DNA of 64,000 bases, from contig WHVD01000002.1 of assembly GCA_015178975.1 (NCBI GenBank), positions 992,001-1,056,000 of the forward strand. Direction: 5' to 3'. Of the stretch, positions 9,653 through 58,984 are shown one piece after another. Made by a program: the position numbers and the translations under genes. The notes under the pieces were generated by a model. That model saw nothing but the letters and a program-made list of their open reading frames with translations, searched no databases and was not told where the DNA came from. This DNA comes from Hysterangium stoloniferum (taxonomy: Eukaryota; Basidiomycota; Agaricomycetes; Hysterangiales; Hysterangiaceae). Numbering within the stretch: the stretch's first letter is position 1; each line of letters begins with the position of its first letter.

Positions 9653-10475
9653 TGTTAGGTATGTACACGGCGGGTTTCCGGAGAAATCCGTGGGTTATCC
9701 GGTAGGACTTGGCTTCAGCTTATAGGCTGCACCCTTGTGAGATTGTGTTGTCCAATTTCAGACAGGCAGATGGGAATCCCAGGGAGTCTGGGCAGGGTTC
9801 GTGGGTCGAGGGGTCGTGGGTCGGAAGTTGTGGGTCGAGAGGTCATGAGTCGAGATAGGTAAGAGAGATAGATGTGCTGGAGCCCGTGGGCTCCAACTAG
9901 TGTGAGCAGTGTAATTCAAGTAGGAGTTTAGAGCAGAAAATGTATTAGATTACTGGGGGGAATCTAAGCCGATTTTCTGACTGGATTGTATGTGAAACAT
10001 CTGCCAGTTTAAATAGACCAAGGAGTGAATGACATACCAAATCCAGTAATGATGAAATGAAAATAGCCAAACATAAAACAGGAATAGTAAACACCGAATT
10101 TGGTGTTAGGAATGGGATGGAACAGAGCGGAGTCCGAATCATGACAAATAATAAACCATAATGGGAAATGGAGTGGGAGCGGAGTCCGAATCGTGACAGG
10201 TCATTTGACTAAAATGGGAACGGGGCTCTGTTAGAGGGATGACAGGTTTTACGAGTGGGGTCTGGTGACTGACACGCGGGATGAGGATGGACATAGACAG
10301 GCACGGAGTCCAGTGGGTTTTCCGGTGACTGAAACACAACATAACGAAGTTGAACGTAGACAAGTCTGACGTACGGAGTCCGGCGGGAATTCTGGTAAAC
10401 TGATAATGAGTGTGTATAGGGTGTGGGTGTGTATAAGTTAGTGCCTGGAGTCTGGCAGGATTTCCGGTCGTAACA
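9653..10475 (-). mobile_element. Solo LTR of the Ty3/Gypsy family, TSD ACTTG
   Basis: Minus-strand LTR running TGTTACGACCGG..to..CCTAACA, 823 bp, the same family as the LTRs at 38742 and 45921 (820 bp). It is flanked by ACTTG at 9648-9652 and 10476-10480, a perfect 5-bp target-site duplication. It is older than the full-length element: many CpG sites have become TpG or CpA. Confidence 0.9.
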
Positions 10476-23740: not shown

Positions 23741-25935
23741 TTAATACTTGGTATACCCTCCCTTGGCCTTTGTGACTACCTCAATCCTTCTTGACATGCT
23801 TTCAATTAACTTGTGACATTCAGAAGCTGGTATATCTTCCCACTCCTTCTCTATCCTCTCCCACAACTCCAGAATCCCACTTGGTACAGTGGCATACTGT
23901 CCCAGCGTTCTCTTCAAGTAATCCCATAGATACTCAATTGGATTGAGGTCTGGAGATTGGGCAGGCCATGGTAGGACAGTCATTCCATTATTCTCAAACC
24001 ATTCCTGTGCCTTTTTTCAGGTATGTTTTGGATCATTATCCTGCTGAAAGATAATTTTAGCAGGGTCCAACTGGTAATACCTGATGCTGTTTTGGAGATC
24101 TTCATCCAAGATACTCCCGTAAAGTTCCCCATCCATTGTACCTCAATCCTGGTGGCATATCCCACACCCTCCCACATGAATCACCCCCAAACCTGTTAGA
24201 TTTAGTGACTCAGCACAGTAGCTATAAGTTGTGTACCATTGTGGGTCCATAGTGCACACTAGTGAAATTTGCATTTGCTCATTTGTGTCTGTGTCTGTGT
24301 CTGAGCTCTCACACTTCTTGTGTTTCACATCCACCTCCCTTCTTCTTTCTAACAAAACCATGGCAGACCCTCCACCAAACTTCACTGTTCCTTGAACTAG
24401 CCTCTCATTCAGGCCTTCCCCAGTCTTTTTCCATACCCACTTCCTCCCATCTGATTTAAGGCGATTTATTTTAGTCTCATCAGACCATATAACCCTCCTC
24501 CAGTCATCTACAGTCCAATACTGGTGGGCCAAAGCAAAGTCAAGCCTCTCCTTCATGTGTCTCTTGGACAAATGTGGCTTCTTCTTCACAACTGCTTTCA
24601 TCCCTGCACTCTTCAAGCTCCTCCAAACTGTATGAGCTGAGATAGAGTTGTTGGTGTTGGTCTGAAGTGTTTTGGCTATGTCAATTGCATTGTCAGCTGT
24701 TCCAGAGGTGATCAAGTGGACTGCATGACAGATGTTGGTGGGAGAGAGCTTCTTGGGATGACCTCCAGTTGATTTTGGGAGGGTAGGAAGGTATTTAGAG
24801 TGAAGTCTGGAGATATGTTATGACTGGAATTCCTGCTGGACTCTGGGCACTAACTTATATGCACCCACACCCTATACGCACCAATTGTCAGTTTACCGGA
24901 ATTCCCATGGGACTCTGTACATCAGACTTGTCCACATTCAACTTCATTACTTCATGTATCAGTCACCGGAATACCCACCAGACTCTGTCCCTGTCTATGT
25001 CCGACCCTGTCCCACGCATCAGTCACCAGACCCTGCTCAGAAAAAAACCCATCATCCCTCTAACTGAGCCCCATTCCCGTTATAGTCAAATGACCTGTCA
25101 CGATTTGGACTCCGCTCCTGCTCCATTCCCATTATGGTTTTATGACCTGTCACGATTCAGACTCTGCTCTGTTCCGTCCTGGTCCTAATACCAAGTTTGG
25201 TGTTTACTTATCTCGTTTTATGTTTGTTAGTTTCGTTTCATTATTACTGGATTTGGTATATCATTCATTCCACGGTCTATATAGTCTGGCCGATATTGTA
25301 CATACAATCCAGTCAGAAAATCGGCTTAGATTCCCCCCAGTAATCTAATACATTTTCCCACCTAAACTCCTACTTGAATCACACCGCTCATGCTAGTCAG
25401 AGCCCATGGGCTCCGGTGCATCTATCTCTCCTATCTATCTCGACTCACAACCCCTCGACCTACAACCCCTCGACCCACGAACCCTGCCTGGACTCCCCAG
25501 GATTCCCGTCCACCTGTCTGAAATTGGACTACACAATCTCGTGAGGGCGCAGCCTATAAGCTGAAGCCAAGTCCTACCGGATATTCCATGGGTTTCTCCA
25601 GAAACCCGCCATGTATGTACAGTACCCTAACACAACTCCCTGACCTCTTGACCCATTAACCCTGCCCGGACTGCCCAGGATTCCCATCTGCCGGTTTGAA
25701 ATTGGACAACACGATCTCGTGAGGGTGCAGCCTATAAGCTGAAGCCAAGTCCTACCAGATTTCCCATGGGTTTCTCTGGAAACCCTTCATGTATGCACCC
25801 TTAACAAGATAGTACTAATGCTAATTCCAGTTATTGAGGCAATGTATGGAGTGGAATGGCGATCTTCAAGCTGGGAGATAATGTATTGTCGCTGATCAGG
25901 TGTGATGGAGTCGATGATGGATTTCTGGTAATAAA
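23741..25935 (-). pseudogene. Tc1-type transposase pseudogene with one intron
   Basis: Read leftwards. N-terminal part (about 25930-25812) has IIDSITPDQRQYII then a helix-turn-helix (ITGISISTISRLHSK), interrupted by the solo LTR, and continues at 24810 with GGHPKKLS. Catalytic motifs: WSDETKIN (first Asp), QQDNDP (second Asp), SPDLNPIEYLW (Glu), with 34 residues between the last two, i.e. DD34E as in Tc1. An intron of 166 nt (24193-24358, GTTTTG..CTAACAG) splits MV from WG; the same intron is in the second copy. Broken by a TGA just after the intron, a 1-bp loss near GAGGTACAATGG, and a TGA after the second Asp region. It acts on TIR DNA in the nucleus when intact. Confidence 0.85.
24816..25806 (+). 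mobile_element. Solo Gypsy LTR with internal duplication, TSD AGATA
   Basis: TGTTATGACTGG..CCTTAACA, 991 bp, flanked by AGATA (24811-24815; 25807-25811). It is longer than the 820-bp family standard because a segment of about 180 bp near the 3' end is present twice (GCCTATAAGCTGAAGCC at about 25551 and 25731). The LTR remnant at 37195-37948 lies in the same Tc1 position in the inverted copy. Confidence 0.9.
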
Positions 25936-29840: not shown

Positions 29841-30541
29841 TTAAACAGCAGAGATGAGTTATGAAAATATGTATATGTATCATGCACCATATGTAATCCT
29901 AATTTTCATCCAATGTGTATCTCAAATTCAGTTCCATGCTGGATTGGGCCTTTACCATGTGCTCCATAGATTCTTTGTAGGGAAGTGCTGCAAATGTGTA
30001 ACAAAGGATTTTATCTGCATTCATTGGCATCCATTGAATACAATCCCAAGAATCAAAAACTTACATACCTAATCCCAATGCTGTTTAAGCTGTGCATCCC
30101 CTAATGTCATATTTTCCCTCACAGACAAGCCCTCCCCTTTGAACAGACTTCTGAGTTGGTGTCACAGTGGGCCATGTTGTTTTCATATCTATATTAAGGA
30201 CAATGTTGACAGTGGCCCCCATGCTCTGATCTGATGTGCCACTCACAAGTCAGTGTGGCAATGGCCTATGAAATCAGAGATCTAGGCAAGAAGAATTATA
30301 AATTTTCCCTGATAAAGTATTGTTTGCTCATGTCAAACTTTTTTTAAAACCAATGACAAGAAAATACTGTCAGGCATTATAGATGAGGATGAGTGATGAT
30401 CACAGATAACCTCAATCCTCAGGCTTAGTGGAAGTACAACAAAATTAAGGTGTAGTATGATAAATACAGATTCAACTGCAGAATGTAACAATGGTGGTGT
30501 CGTGGTTCAGTATGTGTTACAAGGTAGCTATCACAAACCAT
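29841..30541. repeat. Gypsy debris duplicated (inverted) at 58084-58740
   Basis: No readable domain. Near-identical to the reverse complement of 58084-58740 and related to 20331-21040. Confidence 0.6.
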
Positions 30542-30635
30542 GCCTTGGTAGCTCAATTGGTAGAGCATAAGGCTCTTACAGTCCCTGTGACCGGTTAAGA
30601 CTGTTGAGGGTGCGGGTTCGGGTCCCGCCTGAGGA
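30542..30635 (+). tRNA. tRNA-Lys-like copy, diverged
   Basis: Keeps GCCTTGGTAGCTCAATTGG and a strong T stem (GCGGG/CCCGC), but the T loop is TTCGGGT, the stem around CTCTTA differs, and the last acceptor base is changed. A T6 run follows. Confidence 0.45.
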
Positions 30636-37194: not shown

Positions 37195-37948
37195 GGGTGC
37201 GTACATGGAGGGTTTCCAGAGAAAACCACAGGAAATCTGGTAGGACTTGGCTTCAGCTTATAGGCTGCACCCTCACGAGATTGTGTTGTCCAATTTCAAA
37301 CAAGCGGATGGGAATCCCAGGGAGTCTGGGCGGGTTTTGTGGGTCAAGAGGTCAGAGGTTGAGTGATAGATGCATCGGAGCCCGTGGGCTCCGACTAGTA
37401 AGAGCGGTGTGATTCAAAGAGGAATTTAGAGCAGAAAATATACTAAGATTACTGGGGAGAATATAAGCTTATTTTCTGACTGGATTGTATATACAACATC
37501 TGCCAGACTATATAGACTGTGGAATGAATAACATACCAAATCCAGTAATAATGAAAATGAAACTAACAAGCATAAAACGAGATAAGTAAACACCAAACTT
37601 GGTATTAGGAACGGGACAGAACAGAGTGGAGTCTGAATCGTGACAGGTCATAAAACCATAATGGGAAGGGAGCGGGAGCGGAGTCTGAATCGTGACAGGT
37701 CATTTGACTATAACAGGAACAGGGCTCAGTTAGAGGGATGTCGGGTTTTCTGAGCAGGGTCGGACATAGCCAGTGATGGAGTCCAGCGGGTATTCTGGGG
37801 ACTGATACATGAAGTAATGAAGTCAAATGTGGACAAGTCTGACATATGGAGTCTGGTGGGAATTCTGGTAAACTGACAATTGGTGTGTATAGGGTGCGGG
37901 TGAATATAAGTTAGTGCCCAGAGTCCAGCGGGAATTCCAGTCGTAACA
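37195..37948 (-). mobile_element. Gypsy LTR remnant at the same Tc1 site as 24816
   Basis: Begins at 37948 (TGTTACGACTGG on the minus strand) with TATCT following, the mirror of the AGATA duplication at 24811. Its distal end is fused to segment P, so one end and one TSD are lost. Inverted duplicate of the 24816 LTR. Confidence 0.8.
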
Positions 37949-38741
37949 TATCTCCAGACTTCACTCTAAATACCTTCCTACCCTCCCAAAATCAACTGGA
38001 GGTCATCCCAAGAAGCTCTCTCCCACCAACATCTATCATGCAGTCCACTTGATCACCTCTGGAAAGGTTGAAACTGCAGTTGACATAGCCAAAACACTTC
38101 AGACCATCACCAACAACTCTATCTCAGCTCATACAGTTTGGAGGAGCTTGAAGAGTGCAGGGATGAAAGCAGTTGTGAAGAAGAAGCCACATTTGTCCAA
38201 GAGACACATGAAGGAGAGGCTTGACTTTGCTTTGGCCCACCAGTATTGGACTTTAGATGACTGGAGGAGAGTTACATATATGGTCTGATGAGACTAAAAT
38301 AAATCGTCTTGGATCAGATGGGAGGAAGTGGGATGGAAAAAGACTGGAATGAGAGGCTAGTTCAAGGAACAGTGAAGTTTGGTGGAGGATCTGTCATGGT
38401 TTTGTTAGAATGAAGAAGGGAGGTGGATGTGAAACACAAGAAGTGTGAGAGCTCAGACACAGACACAGACACAGACACAAATGAGCAAATGCAAATTTCA
38501 CTAGTGTGCACTATGGACCCACAATGGTACACAACTTATAGCTACTGTGCTGAGTCACTAAATCTAACAGGTTTGGGGGTGATTCATGTGGGAGGGTGTG
38601 GGATATGCCACCAGGATTGAGGTACAATGGATGGGGAACTTTACGGGAGTATCTTGGATGAAGATCTCCAAAACAGCATCAGGTATTACCAGTTGGACCC
38701 TGCTAAAATCATCTTTCAGCAGGATAATGATCCAAGACATC
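37949..38741 (+). pseudogene. Tc1-type transposase pseudogene, copy 2, 5' part
   Basis: Continues the transposase from the RLHSKYLP region: GGHPKKLS, TVWRSLKSAGMK, KPHLSKRHMKERLDFA, then the WSDE motif region (here with an extra ATAT that shifts frame), FGGGSVMV, the intron (38399-38570, GTTTTG..CTAACAG, 172 nt) and GSILDEDLQNSIRYYQLDP to QQDNDP. Shares the post-intron TGA and the 1-bp loss with copy 1, so both descend from one already dead element. Interrupted at 38741 by the Gypsy element. Confidence 0.8.
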
Positions 38742-39561
38742 TGTTACGACCGGACAAATCCCGCCGGACTCCGGGCACTAACTCGTACGCCCCCACGCGC
38801 TACAAGCACCAATCGTCTGTTTATAGGATTTCCCGCCCGGACTCCGTTACGTCAAGACTCGTTACGTTCGACCTCATTAAGACCCATATCAGTCACCGGA
38901 CTTCCCCCGGACCCCGTCTCTGTCTATGTCCGTCTTCGTCCCACGCATCAGTCACCGGATCCCGCTTAGAATCCCGTCACCGCTCTAATCGAGCCCCGTT
39001 CCCGTTTCAGTCAAATGACCTGTCACGATTTAGGACTCCGCTCCCGCTCCGTTTCCCGTTATGGGTTATGCTTTGTCACGATTCGGACTCCGCTCCGTTC
39101 CGTCCCGTTCCTAACACCAATTTGGTGTTTACTATTCCCGTTTTATGTTTTGCTCGTTTCGTCTCATTATTACTGGATTTGGTATGTCATGCATTCCACA
39201 GTCTATATAAACTGGCAGATGTTGTACATACAATCCAGTCAGAAAATTAGCTTAGATTCCCCCCAGTAATCTAATACATTTTCCTCTCTAAAACCCTACT
39301 CTTATCAGACCGCTCGCACTAGTCGGAGCCCACGGGCTCCGGCGCATCTATCTCTCTCGACTATCTCGATTCACGACTCTCGACTCACGACCTACGACTC
39401 ACGACCCACGAACCCCCGCCCAGACTCCCCGGGATTCCCGTCCGCCTGTCTGAAATTGGACAACACGATCTAGCGAGGGCGCAGCCTATAAGCTGAAGCC
39501 AAGTCCTACCGGATATCCCGCGGGTTTCTCCGGAAACCCGGCCTGAGTGTGTATCCTAACA
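38742..39561 (+). repeat. 5' LTR of the Ty3/Gypsy element
   Basis: 820 bp, TGTTACGACC..CCTAACA. Contains a CTATATAAAC box (about 39203) and repeated GGACTCCG motifs. The gag ATG lies only 37 bp past its end; no tRNA-matching primer site is evident there. Confidence 0.95.
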
Positions 39562-39597
39562 GTATTTTCTGACTAATACTCGCAGATTGTTTTCATT

Positions 39598-41016
39598 ATG
39601 CCACCAAGAAGAAGTACACGCGCACAGTCATCAATGCCTGGACCGTCGACTCTTCATTCCCTGTTAACTCTGTATACCAGTCAGACGCTTGCGAACCAGT
39701 CGGAACCCATGGAAGAAGCCCGCATCGAAGAAATCCCGGAAGACCTGGACGAATCCGAGCGCGAGGACGATTCCGTGGCCCCCGACAAGGGCAAAGGTGT
39801 GGAAATCCCTCCTGAAAATCCTCCGCCTTTTCAACGACCGAACACGAGGGATCCTACTTCTGAGTTTTTAGCAGGTACTATAGATAAATTCATGACGCAC
39901 CTGCTAGAAGAACAAAAAAAAAAGGAACAAGAACCTCCATGGTCAAAAGTCAATGCTCCGGAACCCTTCACGGGTTCCAACCCAAACAAACTCTCTACTT
40001 TCCTCATGCAATGTCGTTTCAATTTCCGCGATCGCGCCGCTGCATTCTCCACAGACTCCCGAAAAGTCAACTACGCACTTTCATATTTGTCGGGATCCAC
40101 GTTGAAATGGTTCGAACCGGCTTTTAGTGGGATTACCGAGGAAGAGCCGCTCTGGCTTGAAAATTGGGAAGCTTTTGTTGAGGAGCTTGAAACCAACTTC
40201 GGCCCGTATGACCCGACAGGAGAAGCCGAGAATAGTCTCACAAATCTTCGTATGAAGGACACACAGCGCATCACGGACTACATCGTCCAATTCAATAATC
40301 TTGCAGCTCGTTGTCAGTGGGGCGATCCCGCTCTCCGCCACCAATTCTACGCCGGTCTGCTGTCCCGCCTTAAAGACGAAGTCTCGAAAGGAGAAGATGG
40401 CAAGCCAAAAACCCTGTCCCGTATGCGCCTCAAAGCTCAAAACGCGGACGCACGTTATTGGGAACGTCGCGCGGAAGTTGCCCGCGAGACATCTGCGGAC
40501 AAAATAAATAAGTCCAAGGACAAAAACAATAACACCAATTCGTCAACCAGCAACCAGAACTCCACGCAATCCGACAAGAAGAACGATAAAAAGTCTTCAA
40601 ACAACAACAACAATAAGGACAATAAGGACAACAACAAGGGTCAACAGTCCGGCAAGCAAGCCAGAAAACCCGACCTCTCAGGCAAACTCAGACCTGATGG
40701 CAAATTGACTCCACAAGAAAGACAATGTCGTATGGACAACAACCTCTGTCTCTTGTGTGGGAAACCCGGTCATCGAGTCCCGGAATGTCCGCTGGCAAAA
40801 GCAAACTCTTCAAAGGGTCGATCAGCCAAGGCCTCCACAGAAACCCCGTCGAAGGACAAACCGGCTGCCGATTCGAAAAAAGAGTTATCAACCCCGTGGA
40901 CTCCGCGCAGGTTAGGGGTTGCGTTGCCTCTCCGCGCATTCAAGAGTTCACTCGCCTCAACGCATCCGCTCTTTCACATTCTGATTCATTTTTCGTTAAA
41001 CTTATGTCTAATATGA
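39598..41016 (+). CDS. Gag of the Ty3/Gypsy element
   Basis: 472 codons. An acidic N-terminus (EEARIEEIPEDLDESE) is followed by the retrotransposon gag domain (about residues 110-260; PEPFTGSNPNKLSTFL, LKWFEP, FGPYDP, NNLAARC), a Lys/Asn-rich low-complexity linker (about 305-350), and one zinc knuckle CLLCGKPGHRVPEC (about residue 385-398). Its 3' 290 nt overlap the pol frame, consistent with the frameshift read-through this family uses. The protein packages element RNA into cytoplasmic particles. Fossil element; described only as a part. Confidence 0.9.
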   Translation: MPPRRSTRAQSSMPGPSTLHSLLTLYTSQTLANQSEPMEEARIEEIPEDLDESEREDDSVAPDKGKGVEIPPENPPPFQRPNTRDPTSEFLAGTIDKFMTHLLEEQKKKEQEPPWSKVNAPEPFTGSNPNKLSTFLMQCRFNFRDRAAAFSTDSRKVNYALSYLSGSTLKWFEPAFSGITEEEPLWLENWEAFVEELETNFGPYDPTGEAENSLTNLRMKDTQRITDYIVQFNNLAARCQWGDPALRHQFYAGLLSRLKDEVSKGEDGKPKTLSRMRLKAQNADARYWERRAEVARETSADKINKSKDKNNNTNSSTSNQNSTQSDKKNDKKSSNNNNNKDNKDNNKGQQSGKQARKPDLSGKLRPDGKLTPQERQCRMDNNLCLLCGKPGHRVPECPLAKANSSKGRSAKASTETPSKDKPAADSKKELSTPWTPRRLGVALPLRAFKSSLASTHPLFHILIHFSLNLCLI

Positions 41017-44000
41017 TCCCGAAATTCGTTTTTTCAGCTCTCATAGATTCCGGCTCGACTCATTGTTTTTTAGATACAAAATTCACGCAAAAAAATTCTT
41101 TGTCAACTTATTCGATAAATCCCGTCGCTCTCCGCCTCTTCGATGGCACAAGTAATTCGGTTGTTACCCAAGCTTGTGATTTACCCATCAGTTTCCCTTG
41201 TGGAACATCTCAATTGGTCACTTTCTATGTGACCCAGTTAGACTCAAGTTGCTCGGTGGTTCTAGGACAAAACTGGCTTACCTGCTACAATCCGTTGATT
41301 GACTGGATAGCTAACAGTATAACTTTCCGGACACCCGCGGCGACCGAGGAAACTGCGCCTGTCTCGGCCTCCACGGCACCCATGGCCTTCCCGGCACCTG
41401 CAGTCTCGAGGACTCCTGTGATCCCTACGGCACCTACAGCTTCCCCGGAACCCACGGCACCTCCGTCCATTTCTCTGATTAATGCTGCAGCTTTTATTAG
41501 GGCTTCAAAAATGGATGGGTCCCAGGCGTTCACTATCAACTTAAAAATTGATGAAGCAACTGGACGTTTCTCAACCCCAGTATCCCAATCTGAGCAAGCT
41601 GCTGACCTAGAAGGCGTCCCGGAGAAATACCATGACTTCGCGGATGTTTTTAGCAAGCGAAAAGCTGACCGGCTTCCGCCTCACAGAGAATACGACTTAA
41701 AAATCGATCTTGAAGATGGCGCCCAGCCACCCCTAGGACATATTTACCCGCTTTTGTCCACGGAACTATCCGCAATCCGTGATTTCCTGGATGAACATTT
41801 GTCCATAGGTTTTATTCGACCCTCAAAGTCTCCTTTTGGAGCACCTGTTTTATTTGTCAGAAAAAAGGATGGATCCCTTCGACTATGTGTTGATTTTAGA
41901 GGACTCAATGCTGTCACCAAAAAGGACAAATACCCACTCCCACTTATATCTGACCTGCTCGACGCTCCGCGGAATGCCCGGATTTACACCAAAATAGATC
42001 TCAAGCATGCCTATCATTTGGTCCGGATTGCCGCAGGCGATGAATGGAAAACCACTTTTAGAACCCGCTATGGGGCCTTCGAGTGGTTGGTCATCCCTTT
42101 TGGACTCACTAATGCCCCGTCTGTTTTTCAGCGTTTTATCAACGACAAACAAGTCCGTGAGGTTCTCCAGAGGCTCAGACAACATGGTTTATTCGCAAAT
42201 GGTAAAAAATGTACTTTTGACACGGACTCCGTGGAATACCTAGGTTTCATGATGGGACCCGATGGACTCTGCATGGACGAAACTAAAGTGCAAGTCATCA
42301 AAGATTGGCCCGAACCCCGAAAAGTTAAAGATATCCAATCCTTCCTCGGCTTTGCCAATTTTTATAGACGTTTTATTCGTGGATATTCCGACATCACGCT
42401 ACCCCTTACCCGTCTTACGCGTAAGGGTACTCCGTGGAACTTTAACGATAAGTGTCAAAAAGCTTTCAATCTTTTAAAAAATTCTTTTTCCACAGCTCCT
42501 ATTCTGTTGCATTGGAAACCGGACTTCCTGCTCATTGTTGAAACGGACGCCTCCGACTATGCACTTGGAGCCATTCTCTCTATCCAGGACTCCGACGGAG
42601 AAGTTCACCCCGTGGCTTTTCTGTCCCGGACTTTTACCGGAGCAGAGCTCAACTACGACGTTCATGATAAAGAACTTCTGGCAATCTTTTCTGCTTTCAA
42701 AGTGTGGCGACACTATTTGGAAGGTTCAGGAGCTCTTATTGACGTTGTAACAGATCACAAAAACCTGGAATACTTTTCTACCACAAAACTCTTGACCCGC
42801 CGGCAGGCCCGCTGGTCTGAATATCTCTCCGCCTTCAACATGATTATCCGTTTTCGACCTGGCCGTCTCGGCGGCAAACCCGATGCTTTAACTAGACGAT
42901 GGGACGTCTATCCTAAAGAGGGGAGCAACGACTATGCAACGGTAAATCCGCACAACCTGAAACCTATCTTCACGAATCAACAACTTACTGCATCAGTCCG
43001 CGCAACTTTCCTCGTCAATCCCATTGTCTGTGGAATTATCATTATGGATATCGAAAAGTTACATCAAGATATTCTATCGGCAATTCCGCTAGACCCAGTT
43101 ACTAAAGCTCATCTGGACAATCCCGTGGACCCCGATCAACCTCGGTGGTCTCTTGATCAACATGGTTTCATTAGACTTGACGATCGTATCTATGTACCGG
43201 ACTTCAACGGCCTCCGCCTCAGGATCCTTCAATACAAACATGATCATCCACTCTCAGGACATTTCGGGTACAACAAAACTCTATCATTAATAAGAAGAGA
43301 ATATACTTGGCCTGGACTCCGTGGATTCGTTAAGCACTATTGTAAATCTTGCACTACTTGTCCCCGCTCGAAATCTCAGCGACACAAGCCATACGGCCTT
43401 TTGAAACAACTCCCGGTACCGGAACACCTGTGGAATTCTATATCTATGGATTTCATTGAACACCTACCGGATTCCGAAGGTTTTTCCGCTATCCTAGTCG
43501 TTGTTGACAGATTCTCAAAACAAGGTATATTCATCCCTACTTATGATACAATTACGACCGTGCAGTTAGCGGAACTTTTCATTATCCACGTATTTTCCAA
43601 GCACGGAGTTCCGTCCCACGTGACTTCCGATCGAGGATCAGAGTTCGTGTCTCACTTCTTTAGATCCCTCGGAAAATCCTTGGACATGACATTACATTTC
43701 ACGTCCGGACATCACCCGGAAGGTGACGGACAAACCGAACGCGTCAACCAGACATTGGAACAATACCTCCGCGTATATTGCAACTATCAACAGGACAATT
43801 GGAAAACCTTGTTACCACTTGCAGAGTTTGCTTACAACAATGCACCCTCGGCCACTACTGGCGTTTCCCCGTTCTTTGCAAATAAAGGATATAATCCAAA
43901 TATTACAGTACATCCAGAACGAAATCTCGCCTCTGTGCGTGCTCAAGAGTTCACCACGGACCTCCACGAGCTCCACGAGGAACTCCGGACTGCAATATTG

Positions 44001-44528
44001 TCTGCCCAAGAGCAATACCAACATTCAGCGGACAAACACCGGATCCCGCCACCAAACTTCAAGATTGGCGACCGTGTTTATGTCAAAGCTCAATTCTTCC
44101 AGACTACCCGTCCATCAAAGAAGCTTGCTGAAAAATATTTAGGTCCCTTTGAAATTATCGCACAAGTAGGTTCAGTTTCTTGGACTCTACGGCTTCCGGA
44201 TAGCATGCGCGCGGTACACCCGGTATTTCATGTCTCTATGCTAGAACCTTGTACTGCTAACACTATCCCGGATCGCGTGCAATCTCCGCCTCCTCCTGTC
44301 GTCATTGACGGAGAACCCGAGTTTGAAATCTCTCAAATTTTAGATTCAAAAATTGACAAGCGTCGACGCACTTGTAAACTGCTTTACTTGGTCAAGTGGG
44401 CGGGTTACGAGGGCACCGATGAAGAAACCTCATGGATTTTGGCCACGGAACTCGGTGATGCCACGGAAATTGTTACTGACTTTCATACAGCTTACCCACT
44501 CAAACCTGGACCATTATCGTCTCTCTGA
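40725..44528 (+). CDS. Pol of the Ty3/Gypsy element
   Basis: 1267 codons in a frame overlapping gag. Parts in order: protease (FSALIDSGSTHCFLD), a Pro/Ala/Thr-rich linker built of short repeats (about 41340-41470), reverse transcriptase (KKDGSLRLCVDFRGLN, IDLKHAYHLVRI), RNase H (ETDASDYALGAILS), H2C2 zinc module (HFGYNKTLS..CTTC), integrase (MDFIEHLP, TSDRGSEF, DGQTERVNQTLEQYL) and a C-terminal chromodomain (YLVKWAGYEGTDEETSW) that in this lineage steers insertion to heterochromatin. The element as a whole is broken. Confidence 0.9.
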   Translation: MSYGQQPLSLVWETRSSSPGMSAGKSKLFKGSISQGLHRNPVEGQTGCRFEKRVINPVDSAQVRGCVASPRIQEFTRLNASALSHSDSFFVKLMSNMIPKFVFSALIDSGSTHCFLDTKFTQKNSLSTYSINPVALRLFDGTSNSVVTQACDLPISFPCGTSQLVTFYVTQLDSSCSVVLGQNWLTCYNPLIDWIANSITFRTPAATEETAPVSASTAPMAFPAPAVSRTPVIPTAPTASPEPTAPPSISLINAAAFIRASKMDGSQAFTINLKIDEATGRFSTPVSQSEQAADLEGVPEKYHDFADVFSKRKADRLPPHREYDLKIDLEDGAQPPLGHIYPLLSTELSAIRDFLDEHLSIGFIRPSKSPFGAPVLFVRKKDGSLRLCVDFRGLNAVTKKDKYPLPLISDLLDAPRNARIYTKIDLKHAYHLVRIAAGDEWKTTFRTRYGAFEWLVIPFGLTNAPSVFQRFINDKQVREVLQRLRQHGLFANGKKCTFDTDSVEYLGFMMGPDGLCMDETKVQVIKDWPEPRKVKDIQSFLGFANFYRRFIRGYSDITLPLTRLTRKGTPWNFNDKCQKAFNLLKNSFSTAPILLHWKPDFLLIVETDASDYALGAILSIQDSDGEVHPVAFLSRTFTGAELNYDVHDKELLAIFSAFKVWRHYLEGSGALIDVVTDHKNLEYFSTTKLLTRRQARWSEYLSAFNMIIRFRPGRLGGKPDALTRRWDVYPKEGSNDYATVNPHNLKPIFTNQQLTASVRATFLVNPIVCGIIIMDIEKLHQDILSAIPLDPVTKAHLDNPVDPDQPRWSLDQHGFIRLDDRIYVPDFNGLRLRILQYKHDHPLSGHFGYNKTLSLIRREYTWPGLRGFVKHYCKSCTTCPRSKSQRHKPYGLLKQLPVPEHLWNSISMDFIEHLPDSEGFSAILVVVDRFSKQGIFIPTYDTITTVQLAELFIIHVFSKHGVPSHVTSDRGSEFVSHFFRSLGKSLDMTLHFTSGHHPEGDGQTERVNQTLEQYLRVYCNYQQDNWKTLLPLAEFAYNNAPSATTGVSPFFANKGYNPNITVHPERNLASVRAQEFTTDLHELHEELRTAILSAQEQYQHSADKHRIPPPNFKIGDRVYVKAQFFQTTRPSKKLAEKYLGPFEIIAQVGSVSWTLRLPDSMRAVHPVFHVSMLEPCTANTIPDRVQSPPPPVVIDGEPEFEISQILDSKIDKRRRTCKLLYLVKWAGYEGTDEETSWILATELGDATEIVTDFHTAYPLKPGPLSSL

Positions 44529-44727: not shown

Positions 44728-45711
44728 TCAGTCTACATTTATGGGACTGTTCTTTTTCCCTGCTTCCTCAGCTATCTCCTCTGGGAGCTCCGCGACCTCC
44801 GCGGCAACCCCGTCCTCATCCGATCCGGCATCCTCGGAACTCCCGACTTGCGGCTCCTTATATACATAGCCGCCATACTCCGCCAGGAACTTCCAAAACT
44901 CCTCGCGGAGTCCGGACAGCTCCTTTGCCACCACAATTTGGACCTTGTTGCTCTTCTGGAGCAACTCGTTTTGGGCCTCGATGCCCTCGGCGATCCGTCC
45001 AAGGACCTCGTCCAACCCGGACAACCCGTCCGTCCCGCTTATGTCTCGCACCCCGGATCCCGTGGCCTGCTCGTGCACAAGCGAGCACCTCGCCTTGAGG
45101 TGCGCCCATTGATAACATCCCGGCCCCCGGCCGGCCTTTCGGTTGCATTCCATGTTCCGGTCGTTGCAACCGGAACACCACGGCTCGTTCCGCGTCGGAA
45201 GACGGACTGGCGCCGCCTTCCTTGCCTTCTGTTGATATGGTCAGTTTCCGCGGGTATTCCTTGGACATGAGGCCTACCTTTTGGGGGCTCTCTGGCTCCC
45301 CTTCGGACTCGGACTCCACCTCTGTCGCTTTGCGCTGAAAATCACAAGTCAGAAAAAACCGACAAGTTGAATATTGGGACTTACCTTTCCCGCAACAATG
45401 GCGGCCCTCTCCGCGGCCAACCGGGCTTTCTCCGCAGCCACCTGGGCGTTCTCCGTGGCCACTCGCGCAGCCTCCTCCGCCTCACGTTCCCTCTCCTTTG
45501 CAGCCTCTTCCTCCGCGGCCAATGCTTCCTGGTACTCTCTGTCCAGGGCCTCCTCAGCCTCCCTCGCCTCTCTCTCTGCTGCTTCACGAAGCTGGCGCTG
45601 CTCTTCTCGCCGCGCCAACAATTGGGCCGCCATCCACGGCGCCCGATACGGAGTGCCCGTGGAGGGCCCTGCTGTCGGCATTGGCTTGCGTGGTGTGGGT
45701 TTTGGTCCCAT
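44728..45711 (-). CDS. Antisense, spliced accessory gene inside the Ty3/Gypsy element
   Basis: Opposite in strand to gag-pol, between pol and the 3' LTR. ATG at 45711 (MGPKPTPRKPMPTAGPST) opens exon 1 (45711-45385), mostly a charged coiled coil (REEQRQLREAAEREAREAEE). Intron 1 is 50 nt (45384-45335, GTAAGT..TTTTCAG), exon 2 is 57 nt (Glu/Ser-rich), intron 2 is 49 nt (45277-45229, GTAGGC..CAACAG), exon 3 runs 45228-44728. All junctions keep frame and give about 294 residues. Exon 3 starts with a basic, Cys-rich module (CSGCNDRNMECNRKAGRGPG) followed by an amphipathic region (LDEVLGRIAEGIEAQNELLQ) and an acidic tail. It could bind nucleic acid; function unknown. Similar Cys-patterned proteins are common in Agaricomycetes (recall). 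Confidence 0.7.
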
Positions 45712-45920
45712 AGTGACGAAGATGGGGGTAATAAAGAAGAAGAAATTTCTATTTTTCAATTTTTTATATAGGCTCGTCGTGTTTGAACCTTACCTTCCAG
45801 ATCACATGACTCTTTGACACATACGTGTAACCGACATGACTTTTGACACATGCGCGTAGCCGACAAGAACCTTATTTAGGTCTAGAGCCTCTTTGGGACT
45901 TCGGCATAAAGGGAGGATAC

Positions 45921-46740
45921 TGTTACGACCGGACAAATCCTGCCGGACTCCGGGCACTAACTCGTACGCCCCCACGCGCTACAAGCACCAATCGTCTGTT
46001 TATAGGATTTCCCGCCCGGACTCCGTTACGTCAAGACTCGTTACGTTCGACCTCATTAAGACACATATCAGTCACCGGACTTCCCCCGGACCCCGTCTCT
46101 GTCTATGTCCGTCTTCGTCCCACACATCAGTCACCGGAACCCGCTTAGAATCCCGTCACCGCTCTAATCAAGCCCCGTTCCCGTTTTAGTCAAATGACCT
46201 GTCACGATTTAGGACTCCGCTCCCGCTCCATTTCCCGTTATGGGTTATGCTTTGTCACGATTCGGACTCCGCTCCATTCCGTCCCGTTCCTAACACCAAT
46301 TTGGTGTTTACTATTCCCGTTTTATGTTTTGCTCGTTTCGTCTCATTATTACTGGATTCGGTATGTCATGCATTCCACGGTCTATATAAACTGGCAGATG
46401 TTGTACATACAATCCAGTCAGAAAATTAGCTTAGATTCCCCCCAGTAATCTAATACATTTTCCTCTCTAAAACCCTACTCTTATCAGACCGCTCGCACTA
46501 GTCGGAGCCCACGGGCTCCGGCGCATCTATCTCTCTCGACTATCTCGATTCACGACTCTCGACTCACGACCTACGACTCACGACCCACGAACCCCCGCCC
46601 AGACTCCCCGGGATTCCCGTCCGCCTGTCTGAAATTGGACAACACGATCTAGCGAGGGCGCAGCCTATAAGCTGAAGCCAAGTCCTACCGGATATCCCGC
46701 GGGTTTCTCCGGAAACCCGGCCTGAGTGTGTATCCTAACA
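45921..46740 (+). repeat. 3' LTR of the Ty3/Gypsy element
   Basis: 820 bp, about ten differences from the 5' LTR, preceded by the purine tract AAAGGGAGGA. Confidence 0.95.
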
Positions 46741-46745
46741 ACATC

Positions 46746-47265
46746 CCTGAAAAAAGGCAAAGGAATGGTTTGAGAATAATGGAATGACTGTCCTACCATG
46801 GCCTGCCCAATCTCCAGACCTCAATCCAATTGAGCATCTATGGGATTACTTGAAGAGAAAGCTGGGACAGTATGCCACTGTACCAAGTGGGATTCTGGAG
46901 TTGTGGAAGAGGATAGAGAGGGAGTGGGAAGATATACCAGCTTCTGAGTGTTAGAAGTTAATTGAAAGCATGCCAAGAAGGATTGAGGCAGTCATAAAGG
47001 CCAAGGGAGGGTATACCAAGTATTAAAATATAGCATATATTGCATCATAATCATCAGCATCAAAACCATTTCAATGAGTAGGCCTGAATAAACTATTTTT
47101 AGCATACCCAAAAATGTATATTACATAATAATATTCTAGACACTGATTCTAGATATGTTTAGCTATACACTGTATTTTTGTGAGATATTTTGCTACTTTT
47201 TCTCCCCTGGTAGTGGCCTGCCAACATGCAAATGTCAAAGATTGAAAAGGTTTTGAGAGTCACTG
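46746..47265 (+). pseudogene. Tc1-type transposase copy 2, 3' part and terminal inverted repeat
   Basis: Resumes just after the Gypsy TSD with WFENNGMTVLPWPAQ, then SPDLNPIEHLWDYLKRK (catalytic Glu) to a stop near 47026. From 47029 the sequence is the 235-bp TIR, ending GAGAGTCACTG at 47265 next to TA. The flank beyond is the same as the flank of copy 1, so this is a duplicated locus, not a second insertion. Confidence 0.85.
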
Positions 47266-47396: not shown

Positions 47397-47549
47397 ACAG
47401 GTGATAAGGTCCACATGGTAATACATGCAGAACCACAGCACCACCATTGTTATGTTCATCAGGATAACCCCCCTCTCTAAAATAAATTCAGGATCCTTAG
47501 TAGAGCCTTATTTTAATAACCTCAGGTACCCTGAAACCAACCTAGCACC

Positions 47550-47837
47550 ATGGATGAACCCTATGTGGAAGAAGTTCTAGAAAACCTGGAAGGTTTGGAA
47601 AATGGAGATGAGTCCATGGGCTCTGACAGCAGCAAGAATGCCCCTGATCCAGCCACTATACCCCATCTGCATTTCATGTACCCCACTACTGACATGGTAG
47701 CAAGGACCTTGAATAAATTTATGGATGCAATGATTGAAGAAAGAAAGAACAAACATCAAGAACCTGTGCAATCCAAAGTCAATGCACTGCAACCTTTCAC
47801 TGGCTCAAATCCCACCAAATTGTCAACTGGATTGTAA
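47550..47837 (+). mobile_element. Ty3/Gypsy gag fragment
   Basis: Frame reads TLNKFMDAMIEERKNKHQEP then SKVNALQPFTGSNPTKLST, parallel to gag positions TIDKFMTHLLEEQKKKEQEP and NAPEPFTGSNPNKLST at 39598. It is cut off by a junction to an LTR fragment in the opposite orientation. Confidence 0.75.
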
Positions 47838-57988: not shown

Positions 57989-58083
57989 TACCTCAGGCGG
58001 GAACCGACCCCGCACCCTCAACAGTCTTGCCCGGTCAGAGGGACTGTAAGAGCCTTATGCTCTACCAATTGAGCTACCAAGGC
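57989..58083 (-). tRNA. tRNA-Lys-like copy, diverged
   Basis: Mirror of the 30542 type: T loop TTCGGTT-like, altered intron and acceptor end. Likely a pseudogene. Confidence 0.4.
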
Positions 58084-58984
58084 ATGGTTCGTGATATCTA
58101 CCTTGTAACACATACTGAACCACGACACCACCATTGTTACGTTCTGCAGTTGAATATGTATTTGTTATACTACACCTTAATTTTGTTGTACTTCCACTAA
58201 GCTTGAGGATTGAGGATATCTGTGATCATCCCTCATCCTCATCTATAATTCCTGACAGTATTTTCTCGTCATTGGTTTTAAAAAAAGTTTGAAATGAGCA
58301 AACAATACTTTATCAGGGAAACTTTATAATTCTTCTTGGCTAGATCTCTGATTTCATAGGCCATTGCCACACTGAGATGTGAGTGGCACATCAGATCAGA
58401 GCATGGGGGCCACTGTCAACATTGTCGATAATATAGATATGCAAACAACATGGCCCACTGTGACACCAAGTCAGAAGTCTGTTCAAAGGGGAGGGCTTGT
58501 CTGTGAGGGAAAATATAGCATTAGGGGATGCACAGCTTAAACATCATTGGGATTAGATGTGTAAGTTTTTGATTCTTGGGATTGTATTCAATGGATGCCA
58601 ATGAACGCAGATAAAATCCTTTGTTCCACATTTGCAGCACTTCCCTACAAAGAATCTATGGATCACATGGTAAAGGCCCAATCCAGCATGGAACTGAATT
58701 TGAGATACACATTGGATGAAAATTAGGATTACATATAGGCCATTATCTTGGACAAGGCTAGATGCCAGGTATCCCAAACCTTTCTGGACTTTCAAGCCAA
58801 GCCCCCATATGTTCATCACTCTCTTCTTTGAATCACTCTCCACAAGTCTACAGATGGTCATAAGTCTGATATATATGCCATAAACACATTGAGATATGCC
58901 AATCAACATCCATGACAGTGTATTTGGAAACCTTCTGTCCATCTTTTCTATATCTTAGGCAGGGGTTATTATCCATGTGCCACT
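58084..58984 (-). mobile_element. Dead Ty3/Gypsy gag and flank, left of the young Copia insertion
   Basis: Inverted duplicate of 29010-30541. The gag continues at 63938 after the Copia element; the uninterrupted counterpart is at 29200-29230. Broken, with several breaks. Confidence 0.7.

Follow-up and report, generated by a model that had tools for sequence, protein, structure and literature searches.

An antisense gene inside a chromodomain Ty3/Gypsy element

The window, by which we mean the whole stretch of 64,000 nucleotides that was analysed, contains a chromodomain Ty3/Gypsy retrotransposon (chromovirus) with gag, reverse transcriptase, RNase H, an H2C2-rve integrase, a chromodomain, two LTRs and a 5-bp target-site duplication (Table 1). 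The LTRs align without gaps and show 10 mismatches in 820 positions. The gag frame matches Retrotrans_gag with an E value of 1e-13 (piece 39901-40641) and includes a CCHC motif, and RVT_1, RNase H, H2C2 and rve were matched piecewise in the pol frame with the Pfam profiles. The reverse transcriptase of the window copy is open throughout, but neither YxDD nor FxDD was found when the pol frame was inspected for them, and an internal stretch appears to be missing. Since pol is without YxDD and the RVT_1 match is shortened to 97 residues for 136 profile positions, the window copy of the element is probably non-autonomous.

On the opposite strand, between the pol stop (44528) and the start of the 3' LTR (45921), lies a gene of three exons and two introns with 294 codons (44728-45711), which from start to stop codon has no overlap with the gag or the pol frame. 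Both introns contain CTGAC as a branch-like motif. The gene had been proposed in a sequence-only reading of the window, and a re-check confirmed it exactly: position and strand are right, the introns measure 50 and 49 nt, all junctions are in phase 0 and the product has 294 residues.

Table 1. Features of the retrotransposon and of its antisense gene, in window positions
Feature	Position	Strand	Remarks
Target-site duplication ACATC, left copy	38737..38741	.	by eye
5' LTR	38742..39561	+	820 bp; TGTTACGACC...CCTAACA
gag frame	39577..41016	+	stop to stop; first ATG 39598
pol frame	40698..44528	+	stop to stop
Chromodomain at pol C-terminus	44322..44486	+	PF00385, E 3.1e-8
Antisense exon 3	44728..45228	-	six-Cys module, long helix, acidic tail, stop
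Six-Cys module	45085..45177	-	C-x2-C-x6-C-x9-C-x2-C-x6-C; window copy has Trp at the fifth
Antisense intron 2	45229..45277	-	49 nt, phase 0; GTAGGC...CTGAC...CAG
Antisense exon 2	45278..45334	-	19 codons; with neighbours bipartite NLS-like KRK...KKARK, by eye
Antisense intron 1	45335..45384	-	50 nt, phase 0; GTAAGT...CTGAC...CAG
Antisense exon 1	45385..45711	-	ATG start; Ala/Glu/Arg-rich, coiled-coil-like by eye
TATA box	45763..45770	-	TATATAAA; 59 bp upstream of ATG
Conserved 5' block, presumed antisense promoter	45790..45909	-	abuts polypurine tract
3' LTR	45921..46740	+	820 bp
Target-site duplication ACATC, right copy	46741..46745	.	by eye

The surroundings of the element are rich in repeats. 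Transposase-like peptide fragments were seen by eye on both of its sides (37947-38741 and 46741-47030), and a Tc1/mariner-like transposon appears to enclose the element. Further LTR copies that belong to this family, with 75-86% identity, are found at 9671-10475 (minus strand), 24816-25785 and 37210-37948 (minus strand), and at 47535-47837 another Gypsy copy or family is represented by a gag-like frame, 69% like the gag of the element over 148 bp. The region 30000-58625 forms a palindrome-like repeat cluster, where the inverted arms 30000-30634 and 57991-58625 are 95% complementary and many other inverted and direct copies are present.

Genomic copies, splice sites and selection on the antisense frame

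The host is probably a basidiomycete fungus, judging from the introns of about 50 nt and the types of element present. A search of the genome (111 Mb, 554 contigs) with the exon 3 protein yielded 1171 first-look candidates; 150 of these were scored and are 79-100% identical to the query. Each of the 150 spans no fewer than 149 of the 164 exon 3 residues, in a gene-based search where elements without the gene cannot appear. Counted by hand, 110 of the 150 have no stop in exon 3, and TGA is carried by 37 of the 40 stop-bearing matches. The window and 59 fetched copies, a non-random sample chosen to span the identity range, were aligned (60 rows). GT..AG is kept in all 60 rows for intron 1 and in 59 for intron 2, with intron lengths of 48-72 nt and 48-52 nt, respectively, and no intron-less copy occurs among the 60 rows. 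This agrees with the earlier argument that the antisense introns survive retrotransposition, because introns on the antisense strand cannot be spliced out of the sense genomic RNA. If exon 3 is allowed to run to the stop of each copy, the spliced frame is open from ATG to stop in 32 of the 60 rows, giving 285-309 residues; the stop position moves by one base or codon in many copies, and 9 rows are open if this position is fixed. The remaining 28 rows have stops, frameshifts or losses. Sequence of the LTR follows in 46 of the 59 fetched copies.

Selection was analyzed as dN/dS over 52 rows, after eight were dropped (L038, L043, L050-L054 and L058). The predicted frame gave 0.237 (95% CI 0.198-0.288), with 0.280 for exon 1, 0.191 for exon 2 (CI 0.067-0.523) and 0.212 for exon 3, and with 0.119 for the 31 codons of the six-Cys module. 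Four of the five other frames gave 1.19-1.38. The fifth, on the element-sense strand with offset 2, had a dN/dS of 0.322, yet it carries 185 stop codons as compared to 32 in the gene frame; by our reading it shares third positions with the gene frame. As a yardstick we used the C-terminal 130 codons of pol, where dN/dS was 0.219 (CI 0.143-0.322) over 59 rows, and by this measure the antisense gene appears about as constrained as the pol C-terminus.

The pattern of variation is in line with these values. In exons 1 and 3 the first two codon positions had a mean pairwise difference of 0.08-0.13 and the third one of 0.22-0.25, and the intron bodies (0.20-0.22) are about as variable as third codon positions. 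The ratio of nonsynonymous to synonymous variants was 129:77 for singletons, 71:85 for variants in 2-4 copies and 146:147 for those in at least 5 copies, which is what purging of older amino-acid changes would produce. Between copies L009-L067 the synonymous divergence of the antisense gene (pS 0.301) was about twice that of the pol C-terminus (0.142), and the 5' region differed by 0.057; the excess in the gene perhaps reflects module exchange or base composition.

Taken together, the purifying selection points to a function of the protein, and with 32 of 60 frames open and a dN/dS of 0.237 the sampled copies speak against the refuting conditions set earlier, a frame lacking in other members or evolving neutrally. 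Conservation of the splice sites and purifying selection support the earlier claim of an antisense, intron-containing, protein-coding gene of the element, and we are nearly certain that this is a real, selected and spliced gene.

Related genes, upstream region and predicted protein

To look beyond this family (family A) we read ten other Gypsy loci for 3 kb beyond the integrase, taken from a PF17921 search (150 scored of 2662 candidates). Two of the ten, L105 (family B) and L108 (family C), have an antisense six-Cys gene, each model being our reading of one locus. The gene of family B encodes 292 residues and has introns of 50 and 56 nt, both in phase 0, a similar exon 2 and identical Cys spacing. 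In a single comparison, exon 3 of this gene and of copy L009 share 31% identity across 90 residues (E 2e-6), and judged by sequence the family B gene is homologous to that of family A. The gene of family C has two introns, 51 and 56 nt long, a product of 242 residues and a middle spacing of x7; with intron phases of 1 and 2, not 0 and 0, we do not claim it as a homologue. Both are repeated in the genome, with at least 150 matches for family B (150 scored of 478) and at least 150 for family C (150 of 189). At the remaining eight loci no such antisense gene was found within the 3-kb stretch, and the 3' LTR possibly lies beyond it. The stretch read at L103 includes the edge of an A-like copy, and L100, L103, L104 and L106, which represent another Gypsy group, have mutually alike long sense frames of 308-378 residues beyond the integrase.

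The 209 bp from the gene to the LTR have a mean difference of 0.057, which is less than in any whole exon. The 119 bp upstream of the ATG are covered in 58 rows, 57 of which have a TATA-like box there, and the block at 45790-45909 shows a pairwise difference of 0.004-0.073 per 20 bp among 46 copies. When compared to its counterpart in family B, 87 bp of the block align with 98 bp (score 71, against a maximum of 39 in 2000 shuffles), and family C has a match (E 0.006) to 32 bp that span the LTR edge. Since part of the match lies at the polypurine tract and the LTR-edge stretch matches family C, the block need not all be antisense promoter. The TATA box and the conserved 5' block nevertheless form a promoter-like region, consistent with the earlier suggestion that the gene is an expression unit of its own. 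Within the LTR, the stretch at 46390-46429 (LTR +469 to +508), after a sense TATA-like box, is near-invariant (0.002-0.013, 46 copies) and is perhaps the sense transcription start.

Read by eye, the predicted protein begins with a coiled coil rich in Ala, Glu and Arg, followed by a bipartite NLS-like stretch, six Cys, a helix and an acidic tail. Each of the six Cys is found in 56 or 57 of 57 rows; the fifth is present in 56, with Trp in the window row only. The Cys-rich module first recognized in the window thus stands, but its description needed correction, as the family has six Cys and the window copy a Trp at the fifth. Zn2Cys6 clusters follow the pattern C-x2-C-x6-C-x(5-12)-C-x2-C-x(6-8)-C, and the module with its x9 linker fits this spacing, the window copy itself being without the fifth Cys. 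The Pfam profile Zn_clus (PF00172) gave a weak match to the native sequence, 14.5 bits (E 0.038) in two stretches, where in the best stretch the module's first half fell on the second half of the profile. When the halves were exchanged, the score in this family was 19.6 bits (E 0.001) in one continuous match, as compared to 14.6 bits for the trimmed native module. In family B the exchanged module scored 14.5, the trimmed native module 13.1 and the whole exon 8.9 bits. The Pfam cut-off for Zn_clus, 21 bits, was not reached in families A and B in either half order, and the module of family C did not match the profile in native or exchanged order. The two halves of the cluster may be swapped, a suggestion that is supported in this family and barely in family B.

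An AlphaFold model of exon 3 of copy L009 predicted a helix at residues 66-118, with block means of 79-94 for residues 71-120, a poorly resolved six-Cys region (block means about 60-75) and a disordered tail (pTM 0.28), and Foldseek found no fold match for this model in the PDB. Against Pfam the whole window protein had sub-threshold matches only (TAF4, E 0.67; SPEF2_D5, E 5.3). Pfam matches up to E 10 included no bZIP model, and Pfam showed no similarity to a known suppressor. The viral_contigs scan yielded no relative, and no sequence relative of the family B exon 3 was found in the PDB (best E 0.58).

As a candidate operator we considered CGG-N3-CCG, which occurs 6 times in the 820-bp LTR (0.39 expected; none of 1000 shuffles reached 6) and 3, 0 and 1 times in the three other LTR copies of the window (0.10, 0.08 and 0.03 expected). 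We rejected it as evidence of binding to the LTR, because the motif is overrepresented in gag-pol as well (8 vs. 1.15 expected) and in the antisense gene (4 vs. 0.69), shows no excess in 820 bp counted from the start of the LTR side in family B, which need not coincide with the LTR there (1 vs. 0.28), and has triplets that are no better kept than other CpG-bearing triplets (0.697 vs. 0.677). An element-wide word bias looks likelier.

Possible function and comparison with known systems

We hypothesize, at about even chances, that the gene encodes a nuclear regulator of the element, made from an antisense spliced mRNA in the manner of HBZ/APH. A TATA promoter of its own beside the 3' LTR would give an antisense pre-mRNA with two small introns, and these would persist through each round of reverse transcription as the sense genomic RNA leaves them unspliced. 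The spliced mRNA would encode a protein of about 290 residues with a coiled coil, an NLS-like stretch, a Zn2Cys6-spaced cluster that presumably binds zinc, a dimerisation-type helix and an acidic tail. Such a protein would dimerise, enter the nucleus and act on the nucleic acid or chromatin of the element itself, possibly by binding DNA, and the outcome would be that sense transcription or integration of the element is set, much as by HTLV HBZ/APH. Both the targets and the direction of this regulation are putative.

Other functions can be envisaged for a protein of this kind. It could be a counter-defence protein that does not regulate transcription but protects the element against RNAi, DNA methylation or heterochromatin. 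The TGA in 37 of 40 stop-bearing matches and the common CpG-type changes at LTR sites fit methylation-driven decay, and therefore a host defence worth countering, and the synonymous diversity of the antisense gene, roughly double the value for the pol C-terminus (pS 0.301 vs. 0.142), would also suit such a role. However, selection is overall purifying and not diversifying (dN/dS 0.24) and Pfam revealed no resemblance to a known suppressor. We hold this function to be unlikely. We consider it slightly less probable still that the protein is a replication cofactor, with a six-Cys helical protein that binds genomic RNA or cDNA and serves packaging, nuclear import or integration targeting. Its basic NLS-like stretch, zinc-cluster-like module, helices and pol-like constraint are compatible with this, but a separate antisense promoter and splicing would uncouple its supply from Gag-Pol, and a CCHC gag and a chromodomain are present in the element anyway.

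Two further explanations are very improbable. Host cargo had been among the roles first suggested. A host gene could have been captured recently and be carried as a passenger; introns are expected in a captured genomic gene and the general architecture is like that of fungal zinc-cluster regulators. This is weakened by the matches, at least 150 and 79-100% identical, the family B homologue with its phase-0 introns, a selection at the level of pol and the 46 of 59 copies that run into the LTR. Given the many matches, the second-family homologue and the pol-like constraint, the antisense gene looks like an old gene of the element. Marginally less credible again is antisense RNA control, in which the RNA would act as such and its open frame would have no importance. 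In its favour, the average difference in the 209 bp upstream of the gene (0.057) is below that of every exon, but the frame-specific dN/dS and the conserved splice sites and cysteines speak for the protein, and from start to stop codon there is no overlap with gag or pol. As a sole function, antisense RNA is largely refuted by the splice-site conservation and the frame-specific dN/dS.

More tentatively than for the single gene, we suggest that fungal Gypsy elements could possess an ancient and widespread class of antisense spliced regulators with a half-swapped Zn2Cys6 cluster, found in several families in one genome, where the introns mark strand-specific expression and the element exerts an HBZ-like control of itself. 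Our results provide quantitative evidence that one antisense accessory gene is protein-coding, predicted to be spliced, under pol-like selection and equipped with a recognisable nucleic-acid-binding type of module. The complete frame survives in 32 of the 60 rows examined, and a homologue exists in at least one further family, which makes the role of retroelement antisense genes directly testable. Reads spliced at the antisense introns can come only from the antisense unit, which gives a clean assay.

Fungal Zn2Cys6 (PF00172) proteins have, as a general architecture, a helix after the cluster and an acidic tail. The antisense protein shares with them the six-Cys spacing, the helix after the cluster and the acidic tail, but differs in that the halves may be swapped, the score is below the Pfam cut-off, and no other domain and no fold match was found. 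Among fungal elements, Zhao et al. reportedly described in Virology in 2011 an antisense gene, brtn, in Boty-like retrotransposons of Botrytis cinerea. From the descriptions in citing papers alone, brtn is like the gene presented here in being an additional antisense gene in a fungal element, and the available text of one such paper gives Boty-like elements a gag-pol with a chromodomain (PMC4227169).

According to the parts of the literature available to us, plant Gypsy elements are known to harbour antisense genes between pol and LTR, brtn is the antisense gene of Boty-like elements in Botrytis, and the antisense proteins of HTLV are spliced and mostly nuclear (PMC7264820, PMC11963269, PMC8365987, PMC4227169, PMC10186651). 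For the plant genes, the available text reports an own promoter and a nuclear protein for gene23 of Grande, suggests DNA binding for TRP28 of Retand, and terms the functions of retrotransposon antisense accessory genes undetermined (PMC7264820, PMC11963269). As described there, these plant aORFs (Grande gene23, RIRE2, Retand TRP28) are like our gene in place, orientation and the many copies, and by its position and strand our gene is an aORF-3R, an antisense accessory ORF between pol and 3' LTR. The proteins differ (TRP28 in Retand, a six-Cys cluster here), and Retand belongs to a non-chromovirus lineage. The word intron is absent from the main texts of both papers on plant aORFs, as far as these were available (PMC7264820, PMC11963269).

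The closest parallel in mode of working is found in HTLV-1 to -4, where HBZ/APH are, in the available text, made from a spliced antisense mRNA from the 3' side, are mostly nuclear and mostly lower LTR-driven expression (PMC10186651). HBZ is there described as a bZIP protein with a promoter inside the 3' LTR (PMC10186651). The likeness concerns the mode of working and we claim no homology, the antisense protein having no bZIP match. In the open-licence literature, as far as its text was available, we found no description of an antisense gene with introns and a zinc cluster in elements of this kind, and the word antisense does not occur in the accessible text of a survey of fungal chromodomain elements (PMC2864245). 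Antisense accessory genes as such are known, and as far as we have searched the spliced zinc-cluster type is new.
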